NCBI GenBank assembly: GCA_018883105.1
Contig: VEQS01000005.1
Coordinates: forward strand, 1-36,285
Direction of reading: 5' to 3'
Length of the DNA stretch: 36,285 bases
Source of the DNA: Phycisphaerales bacterium
GTDB taxonomy: Bacteria; Planctomycetota; Phycisphaerae; Phycisphaerales; SM1A02
In this document: positions 30,243 through 34,109 of the stretch, piece after piece
Layout: the number at the start of each line of letters is the position of its first letter
How positions within the stretch are numbered: position 1 is the stretch's first letter
The notes under the pieces: generated by a model
Told to the model about the DNA's origin: nothing
Databases searched by the model: none
The model's input: the letters and a program-made list of their open reading frames with translations, nothing else
Program-made: the position numbers and the translations under genes

Positions 30243-31310
30243 TTACACTGACATCTTGGATGGGTTGAACCCAATCCGCTGCATAAGGCCGTCGAACGCA
30301 TCCAGCGAATGGAAGTGAATCCTCAGTTCGCCAGCGCCCTTTCGCCGACCGACCCTGAGTTCCACGCGCGTGCCGAGGTGCTCTTCGAGCCGCCGCTGCA
30401 GATCGGCAACATGGGCGCTGGACGGTGCCCCCCGTCCGTGCGTGCTCGATGTTCCACGTGGAACACCCCCCTCTGACCGCACCGCCTGCTCGAGCTGACG
30501 GACCGACCAGCCGCCTGCCGCAGCCGTGTCCGCCAGCAACCGGCGGCGCGCGACCTCTGTGATGCCCATGAGCACCTTCGCGTGACCCAACGTCAGCGCC
30601 CCCGAACGAACGTGCGCGGCCGACGCGGCATCCAGCTCGTTCAGCCGCAGCAGGTTCGTCACGGTCGACCGGTCGAGCCCCAGGCGTTCAGCGAGGCCTT
30701 GGTGCGATACCCCGAACTCCTCGCTCAATCGGCGCAACGCAGTTGCCCGATCCATGGGGTTCAGGTCCTCCCGCTGCAGGTTCTCGATGAGGGCGAGTTC
30801 GGCGGCCTGACGGTCATCAACATCCTGCACGATCGCCGGGATCTCGGCCCATCCAAGCCGCTGCACGGCCCGCCACCGGCGTTCGCCGGCGATCAGTTCA
30901 TGTCCGGCCCCGCGCCGGCGCACGACGATCGGCTGCATGAGCCCGGACTGCGCGATGCTGGCGGCGAGCGCATCGAGCATCGCCGGATCCATCTGGCCGC
31001 GCGGCTGATACGCGCCGGGCGAGATTCCAAGGACTGGGATGAAGGTCACGCGAACGCCCGCTGGATCCGCGCTCTCGGAGGCCGTCGCCGCCGAGGTGAT
31101 CGTGGCCGAGGGAGTTCCGACGGCTGCGCCGGAGGCGGTCGATGGCTTCGGTTCGGTGGTGATCGCCGCGGCTGGTGCAGAAACCGATCGCGACGGCTCG
31201 ACCGCGACGGCCGGGCGCTGCGCCGGCACTGGAATCAGGCTTCCCAGCCCGCGCCCGAGCTTCGAAAGACCAGGCTTGGCAGGGGACGAACGACCGGGAT
31301 CCTTGGCCAT
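30243..31310 (-). CDS. parB: ParB/Spo0J-family chromosome partitioning protein
   Basis: 'LGRGLGSLIPV', 'GAYQPRGQMDPAMLDALAASIAQSGLMQPIVVRRRG..HELIAGERRWRAVQRLGWAEIPAIVQDVDDRQAAELALIENLQREDLNPMDRATALRRLSEEFGVSHQGLAERLGLDRSTVTNLLRL'; SD GGAGGTG before ATG 31310. Confidence 0.95.
   Translation of the reverse strand: MAKDPGRSSPAKPGLSKLGRGLGSLIPVPAQRPAVAVEPSRSVSAPAAAITTEPKPSTASGAAVGTPSATITSAATASESADPAGVRVTFIPVLGISPGAYQPRGQMDPAMLDALAASIAQSGLMQPIVVRRRGAGHELIAGERRWRAVQRLGWAEIPAIVQDVDDRQAAELALIENLQREDLNPMDRATALRRLSEEFGVSHQGLAERLGLDRSTVTNLLRLNELDAASAAHVRSGALTLGHAKVLMGITEVARRRLLADTAAAGGWSVRQLEQAVRSEGGVPRGTSSTHGRGAPSSAHVADLQRRLEEHLGTRVELRVGRRKGAGELRIHFHSLDAFDGLMQRIGFNPSKMSV
30450..30465. promoter_or_regulatory. 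parS: parS-like centromere site inside the parB CDS
   Basis: Perfect 16-bp palindrome TGTTCCACGTGGAACA matching the Spo0J/ParB parS family; encodes VPRGT in the ParB linker. Confidence 0.85.
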
Positions 31311-31339
31311 GAAACACCTCCATGTGTGCGCGATGGCAT

Positions 31340-31355
31340 CGTTCCGCGTGGAACA
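31340..31355. promoter_or_regulatory. Degenerate parS-like site upstream of parB
   Basis: CGTTCCGCGTGGAACA: 14/16 match to the intragenic parS, 30 bp upstream of the parB start codon. Confidence 0.5.
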
Positions 31356-31494
31356 TCCACGCATCGCACCAACGCGTCATGCGATCGTAACTTCGGCACG
31401 CGCGTCGGCGAGCGACCACGCACCACGGTCCCCACACCACCAGGGCGAAGGAGCAGGGCACCCCGTCGTCGGCACTACGTCCGATAACTTCGTC

Positions 31495-32242: not shown

Positions 32243-33703
32243 TCACGCCGACCAGGTTGCGCCCGGAGCGGGACGCTCGACGCGCGCGCAGCCCGCGGAT
32301 GCAAGGCGTGCGGACATCATCTCGCGTGCCCGCTCGTCGCCGTGGTTGAGGAGCACCGCCGAGGGAACCTTCCCCGATCCGAGGAGCCACGACTCCATCT
32401 GCGACGGATCCGCGTGGCCACTGAGCCCATGCAGGCGGGTGACGCGCGCACGCACGTCGAGCTCCTGGCCGTTGATGCGCACGCGGCGCGCGCGCCCCTC
32501 GGCCAGCGCCTCGGCAAGGGAGCCCGGGAGCACGTAGCCGGTGAACACCACGTGCCCGTGGTCATGACCCACATGGTGCTCGAGGTGGTGGAGCACCGGA
32601 CCCGCGTCGCAGAAGCCGCTTCCGGCGAGCACGATTCCCGCACCCTGGCGCCCGGCGATCCGAAGCGAATGCCGGCGCGACCACAGGAAATGCAGCGAAT
32701 CGAAGTCAAACGGCGAGTGACCGCGCGAGACCATCGCCCGCGCCTCGTCGGAGAGGAGCGACGGATGGCGCACGCACAGCTCGCCCGCACGGATCGCCAT
32801 CGGGCTGTCGAGGTAGACCGGCATCTCGCCCATCACGCCCTCGCGTGCGAGACGTGCGAGGTGGTGGACGATCACCTGCGCACGTCCGAGGCTGAAGGTC
32901 GGCAGCACCGCCGTCCGGTCGCGCGCACGGCAGTCGGCGACGATCTCGCGCAGCTCCACGGGGACGTCGGCGACCGGGGCGTCCGCGGGGCGCGCGCCCG
33001 TCGTGCATTCCATCACCACCACGTCGGCTTCCGGCGCGTCCGGCCGCTCGCGCAGGTACGAGTCGCCGCGCGGGCCGACGTCGCCGGAGAACAGGATGCG
33101 CGTGCGCGACGCGCCGTGCTTCACCTCGAGCTCGACCGATGCACTGCCGATCACGTGCCCGGCGTCGTGCAGCCGCATGCGCACGCCGTCGGCAAGGTCG
33201 CGCCACGCGCCGTAGGGCACGCCGATCGCCATGCGCCCGGCACGGTCGGCGTCGCCGCCGCCGTAGAGCACGGGCGGGTCCTCGGTGCGGCGCTGCGCCG
33301 AGGTCACCGCGGGGTCTGGCGGCGGATCGACGACGACCGCGTCGGGACCGGTGCCCTCGCGATGCTCCTGGAGGCGCACCTTCTGCAGGTTCGCGGAGCT
33401 GCGCAGCACCATCGGGAGCAGCTCCGCGGTCGGCTCCGAGCACCAGATGGCGCGGTCGAAGCCGAGGCGCGGCAGCATCCCGAGCCGGCCGCAGTGGTCG
33501 ATGTGGGCATGAGTGCAGACCACCGCGTCGAGCGACCGGAAGTCCACCGGCGGCGGGTCGGCGCTGCGCCGCTCCTGCTCGTGCGAGCCCTGGAACAGGC
33601 CGAAGTCGACCAGGACGCGCGCGCGGTCGGTCTCCAGGAGCGTGCAGCTTCCCGTGACCTCCCCGGCGGCCCCGAAGAACGTCAGCGATGGCGCTTTCGA
33701 CAC
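32243..33703 (-). CDS. MBL-fold metallohydrolase, RNA-processing exonuclease (CPSF/Ysh1-like, beta-CASP) type
   Basis: 'SLTFFGAAGEVTGSCTLLET', 'LVDFGLFQGSHEQERRSA', 'VVCTHAHIDHCGRLGMLPRLGF', 'DAGHVIGSASVELE', 'ILFSGDVGPRG', 'VYLDSPMAIRA', 'GSGFCDAGPVLHHLEHH', 'LHGLSGHAD'. GTG start. Confidence 0.92.
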   Translation of the reverse strand: MSKAPSLTFFGAAGEVTGSCTLLETDRARVLVDFGLFQGSHEQERRSADPPPVDFRSLDAVVCTHAHIDHCGRLGMLPRLGFDRAIWCSEPTAELLPMVLRSSANLQKVRLQEHREGTGPDAVVVDPPPDPAVTSAQRRTEDPPVLYGGGDADRAGRMAIGVPYGAWRDLADGVRMRLHDAGHVIGSASVELEVKHGASRTRILFSGDVGPRGDSYLRERPDAPEADVVVMECTTGARPADAPVADVPVELREIVADCRARDRTAVLPTFSLGRAQVIVHHLARLAREGVMGEMPVYLDSPMAIRAGELCVRHPSLLSDEARAMVSRGHSPFDFDSLHFLWSRRHSLRIAGRQGAGIVLAGSGFCDAGPVLHHLEHHVGHDHGHVVFTGYVLPGSLAEALAEGRARRVRINGQELDVRARVTRLHGLSGHADPSQMESWLLGSGKVPSAVLLNHGDERAREMMSARLASAGCARVERPAPGATWSA

Positions 33704-33713
33704 GCGGAGCCGA

Positions 33714-34109
33714 TCAGTCCCAGCGGAAGACGCCCTTGCGCCACGCGTAGATGTACGCGAGCACGCTGGTCGCGATGAAGAACAGGATGCGCGCGAGGAA
33801 CAGGCCCGACATCGGGCTCTGCGGCTCGAGCTGCGCATAGGCGACCGCCCACGGGTAGAGGAAGATCACCTCGACGTCGAAGAGCAGGAACGTCATCGCG
33901 ACCACGAAGAAGCGCACGTTGAAGCGCTTGCGGGCGGTGCCGATGGCGCTCATGCCCGACTCGTAGGTGTCGCCCTTGATGTCGCCCTCGCGTCGGGGCC
34001 CGAGCATCCAGCTCGCGCCGATGTTCACGATCGCGAAGATCGTGCTCATCACCACCGCCATCGCGATGGTCACGTAGCCGGTGAGGTCGGTGGCCGCGAG
34101 CAGCTGCAT
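33714..34109 (-). CDS. nuoA: NADH-quinone oxidoreductase subunit A
   Basis: 'LGPRREGDIKGDTYESGMSAIGTARKRFNVRFFVVAMTFLLFDVEVIFLYPWAVAY' is the NuoA/NDUFA3-type signature. Start ATG 34109 or GTG 34118. Confidence 0.94.
   Translation of the reverse strand: MQLLAATDLTGYVTIAMAVVMSTIFAIVNIGASWMLGPRREGDIKGDTYESGMSAIGTARKRFNVRFFVVAMTFLLFDVEVIFLYPWAVAYAQLEPQSPMSGLFLARILFFIATSVLAYIYAWRKGVFRWD

Follow-up and report, generated by a model that had tools for sequence, protein, structure and literature searches.

In Bacillus subtilis, one of about ten parS sites lies in parB, and parA adjoins parB. The site located within the parB gene is parS-359 (PMC4442127), which restores ParB foci as the sole site (PMC7614844), on a chromosome with ten parS sites (PMC7614844, PMC4368675). 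A GTDB scan for the core plus a GT-x-V codon pattern at the right distance returned at least 116 records. Among the matches listed, at least 51 place the site in parB, in frame and within the homologous linker (i.e., 48 from Bacillota and three from the genus described here), and most of the non-Bacillota matches listed lie outside parB. Two further loci, from Deltaproteobacteria and Bacteroidetes metagenome-assembled genomes (L098 and L164), carry the parS core with an in-frame VPRGT at the start of an mnmG/gidA-like open reading frame (ORF). Given parS-359 and the in-frame sites of Bacillota, parS inside parB is not new as an arrangement. In the literature searched, mostly without subscription papers, we found no description of its occurrence in Planctomycetota, of the confinement of parS to parB, or of its relocation between frames.

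The stretch of DNA analyzed here (36,285 nucleotides; "the window") is a single contig from the assembly of an uncultured Phycisphaerales bacterium (2.76 Mb; 255 contigs; 87% complete). Its parB gene is contained in a longer ORF on the minus strand (30243-31364; start at 31364). Translation from the likely start codon begins MAKDPGRSS...SKLGRGLGSLIPV and includes the motifs LGRGL (N-terminal), GERRWRA, and ENLQREDLNP. Its domains (Table 1) and the GERR, ENLQR, and LGRGL motifs identify the product as a chromosomal ParB/Spo0J protein. In the genus, parB shows synteny with a beta-CASP metallo-beta-lactamase gene (window positions 32246-33838, minus strand), whose best NCBIfam matches (i.e., type VII CRISPR Cas14 and aCPSF1) fall far under the cut-off.

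Table 1. Features of the parB locus (window coordinates)
Feature	Position	Strand	Remarks
parB	30243..31310	-	355 aa from likely start ATG 31310; Pfam ParB_N, HTH_ParB, ParB_C; TIGR00180
ParB_N (CTP-binding) domain	30774..31049	-	PF02195, E 5.9e-30
HTH_ParB DNA-binding domain	30474..30770	-	PF17762, E 2.6e-27
Linker containing parS	30420..30473	-	gap separating the HTH_ParB and ParB_C matches
Intragenic parS TGTTCCACGTGGAACA	30450..30465	.	14-bp core 30451-30464; encodes VPRGT
ParB_C dimerisation domain	30270..30419	-	PF23552, E 4.3e-15
Weaker parS-like site TGTTCCACGCGGAACG	31340..31355	-	2 mismatches/16; 30-45 bp 5' of likely parB start

The intragenic sequence TGTTCCACGTGGAACA is a perfect 16-bp palindrome with a CACGTG center, close to the parS consensus TGTTNCACGTGAAACA, and is read on the parB strand through the codons GTT CCA CGT GGA ACA. 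A first reading made from the sequence alone had reported a perfect parS-family palindrome inside parB and had placed the encoded VPRGT in the linker joining the HTH region to the C-terminal domain; the match is exact, and both the reading frame and the gap between the two flanking domain matches agree with that placement. Shuffles of the window gave an expectation of 0.07 motif matches at three or fewer mismatches, while three were observed: the perfect copy, a match with two mismatches at 31340-31355, and a match with three mismatches at 987, which looks like chance. The second of these, a weaker site 5' of parB that the sequence-only reading did not mention, is a degraded site in the window's genome (2 of 16 positions). 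A perfect or one-mismatch core occupies the same 5' place in all 10 genus genomes having that region, about 30 to 75 bp from the parB start codon. Both G010 and the window's genome have a mismatch in the 5' core, which leaves the intragenic copy as the sole perfect one there.

We scanned the genus genomes with the 14-mer (one mismatch or fewer). In these fragmented metagenome-assembled genomes, where counts cover recognizable sites in assembled sequence, perfect copies were found only at parB in every genome with parB; there are usually two, one 5' of the gene and one inside it. In 22 genomes of five genera, every exact copy of GTTCCACGDGGAAC lies at parB: g44, g305, and g17 have two copies per genome, g18 has two or three, and G000 and G010 have one each. 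In a further 25 genomes, exact GTTYCACGTGRAAC was at or near parB in nearly all of those having it, the clear exception being G036. This genome (L022, genus g24) has no good parS near parB and carries eight exact GTTTCACGTGAAAC sites on contigs other than that of parB (C43, C44, C96, C106, and C122), four of them within 0.7 kb on C96.

Although dnaA is absent from the window contig itself, it lies approximately 25 kb from parB on the same contig in three genus genomes (G003:C97, G007:C3, and G008:C199); around parB, the window shares synteny with G003 and G007. In the one-contig family genome G022, sampled values of GC skew stay negative as far as 1.42 Mb and are positive at 1.48 Mb and beyond, with the switch placed between 1.44 and 1.48 Mb. 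In this genome dnaA lies at 1.402 Mb, and parB lies at 1.556 Mb; the dnaA-parB distance differs in other genera. The proposal in the sequence-only reading that the motif marks the neighborhood of the replication origin is supported by the confinement of its copies to parB, the distance to dnaA in the three genus contigs, and the nearby skew switch in G022. No exact TTATCCACA DnaA box was found in 36 kb of G007 or 40 kb of G003 around dnaA and parB. The dnaA gene of the genus (L062:2174-3646) is flanked by genes for a formamidopyrimidine-DNA glycosylase and a metallo-beta-lactamase-fold protein.

The parB gene is not adjoined by parA as in a chromosomal ParABS operon. ParA-type (AAA_31) genes were on contigs other than that of parB in all eight genus genomes tested (G000, G002, G003, G004, G006, G007, G008, and G010), and the best ParA-type gene in G022, where placement was also checked, is 18 kb from parB. 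With parA and parB lying apart in the genus, the locus is assigned to a ParABS system presumptively. SMC was found in 6/6 genus genomes tested, and ScpA was found in 5/6.

To the family as a whole, the comparison was extended through 119 complete parB loci from 41 genera, in which sites were counted in the gene and in the 650 bp 5' of it. Sites were called intragenic by the LGRGL anchor; an older definition, the start of the HMM alignment, had put some 5' sites inside the gene. Two sites were found in 79 loci, one in 24, three in 15, and none in 1. Intragenic sites occur in the linker in frame 0 (g1 and g44) or frame 1 (most g18 genomes), in the N-terminal part of parB (g16, g17, g292, g305, g5, and others), and in the folded N-domain (g14 and g18), and the encoded peptides are VPRGT (frame 0), RSTGN (frame 1), and FHEE (frame 2). 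The parB ORFs of the family (124,619 bases) contain the motif 68 times and the reversed motif 0 times, although the 68 occurrences come from related ORFs and do not count as independent events. In the ParB phylogeny, the frame-0 linker site requires two changes; a single origin of the g1 and g44 sites was recovered in 0 of 200 bootstrap trees and was not rejected by the AU test (p = 0.16). Most other planctomycete genera lack parS at the place homologous to the Bacillota linker.

Where a genus has an intragenic site, there is mostly one further site 5' of parB, and many other genera have two 5' sites; genus g18 has two or three parS inside parB and none found 5'. A genus-level test for fewer 5' sites where an intragenic one exists (p = 0.004) was computed with the older intragenic definition and across related genera and is only suggestive. 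A fixed spacing of the two sites was rejected, since 5' pairs are tens to hundreds of bases apart and pairs of a 5' and a linker site are about 0.9 to 1 kb apart. A half-asymmetric parS whose center is ACGG (CCGT on the opposite strand) rather than ACGT was also seen (loci L023, L024, L032, and L033). It is common and conserved in several genera (listed for g14, g17, g18, g20, g42, and g305), and in frame 1 it exchanges a tryptophan codon for a glycine codon (STGN versus STWN).

We consider it highly probable that the palindrome belongs to a pair of parS sites that jointly appear to form the chromosome centromere, both at the gene of their own binder. Loading of ParB-CTP clamps at the site is the natural reading of such a sequence. 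ParB-CTP would load at both sites as sliding clamps, and the loaded clamps would spread across parB and its neighbors and mark the origin region, both for its segregation by an unlinked ParA and for the loading of SMC-ScpAB; we infer binding, clamp closure, segregation, and SMC loading from what is known of the ParB family. The site may sit in the loosely constrained linker because its VPRGT codons are tolerated there. What is conserved would be a few sites in or beside parB, rather than a fixed position, peptide, or frame. Feedback of the loaded clamps on parB transcription is plausible and would be secondary.

If the sites were mainly an operator, clamps at the 5' and intragenic sites would block parB transcription and hold the level of ParB constant. 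The short distance between the 5' site and the start codon in the genus fits this explanation, as does the expectation that clamps from both sites would load on the transcribed unit. We nevertheless consider it unlikely. The parS sites of g18 are all inside parB, with none detected 5'; therefore, promoter binding cannot be the general purpose. No other parS was found in these genomes, which would leave them with a missing centromere if the sites were only operators, and no promoter is recognizable. The clamp-loading centromere is better supported than autoregulation of parB via parS, which the sequence-only reading had raised and which may operate where a site lies 5' of the gene.

A further explanation is that the protein needs VPRGT and that the palindrome simply follows from the codons of this peptide. 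The peptide is indeed invariant in the genus (12/12) and in g44 (8/8), and Bacillota have VPRET or VPRGT at the homologous linker. However, the codons GTT CCA CGT GGA ACN are kept in all 12 genus genes, while the flanking linker differs in sequence and length. Among these genes, 83 invariant columns hold residues with at least four codons; 79 of the columns use 2 to 5 codons, and the sole codon-invariant residues are the V, P, R, and G of the parS site (4/83). Limiting the test to the 10 full-length genes gave the same four residues (4/98). The 14-mer GTTCCACGTGGAAC is unchanged in 12/12 genes and is the gene's only invariant run of at least 8 nt; the outermost base pair of the palindrome varies in the genus, as it does in the 5' sites. 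No VPRGT with scrambled codons was found among the 12 genus relatives; a single synonymous change within the site was seen in one g44 genome. In other genera, this DNA word is read in a different frame and falls in a different part of the protein, and most genera lack the peptide at the linker. Peptide-driven conservation was rejected on the codon test and the other frames in related genera, and we regard this explanation as very improbable. The idea, raised with the sequence-only reading, that the palindrome is kept beyond the needs of the peptide holds up: its nucleotides are invariant in 12/12 genes, while nearly all other synonymous positions vary. The site is conserved as DNA beyond coding need, and very probably it is a functional parS on which selection acts at the DNA level. 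Nucleotide-invariant runs were also tried as site markers in g17, g42, g19, g298, and g300, where they mark no site.

The least probable explanation is a chance palindrome or an mRNA hairpin (terminator or attenuator), which a perfect inverted repeat foldable as RNA might suggest, but the local fold is no stabler than shuffles (z -0.34), no terminator was found, the DNA word is kept while its position shifts and is also present 5' of the gene, and the family parB ORFs contain the motif without a single reversed match; a hairpin or terminator was rejected on the first two of these grounds.

A broader proposal, for which we see the case as evenly balanced, is that in this Phycisphaerales family the whole centromere set is tethered to parB and repeatedly re-enters its coding sequence, each time at another place and in another frame. 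If so, one DNA segment would be at once a centromere and the gene for its binder, and selection for keeping parB and parS physically coupled would be indicated (e.g., through co-inherited specificities, loading of ParB at the place of its synthesis, or clamp feedback on the gene). The parS-in-parB solution known from B. subtilis is seen here in another phylum. The sites have moved into parB repeatedly and in different frames, while each genome keeps about two of them and no others were found away from parB. The family offers a natural series in which to ask why a centromere remains linked to the gene of its binder, as well as a minimal centromere of two sites whose parA is unlinked.

Among known systems, the closest are parS-359 in the spo0J/parB gene of B. 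subtilis and the similar sites of other Bacillota, with a core identical except for one base (GTTCCACGTGRAAC). In alignments with the ParB proteins of Bacillus, Peribacillus, and Planococcus, parS is in frame in the same HTH-to-C-terminal linker, and sites of the parS-359 type share with the present one the frame, the homologous linker in the Bacillota relatives, and proximity to the origin. Unlike in B. subtilis, parA is unlinked here and parS occurs only at parB, each genome of the genus having two sites; the peptide is VPRGT rather than VPRET, and the site is known from sequence alone. The gidB-parA region of Mycobacterium is similar in having parS inside genes of the par region and two sites per genome, but its sites are inside parA (Mycobacterium bovis BCG) and at the 5' end of gidB and not in parB (PMC2346475). 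The canonical parS sites of Pseudomonas, Caulobacter, and Streptomyces belong to the same 16-bp palindrome family and are bound by ParB proteins of the same architecture, but they form multisite clusters around oriC that are not limited to parB.
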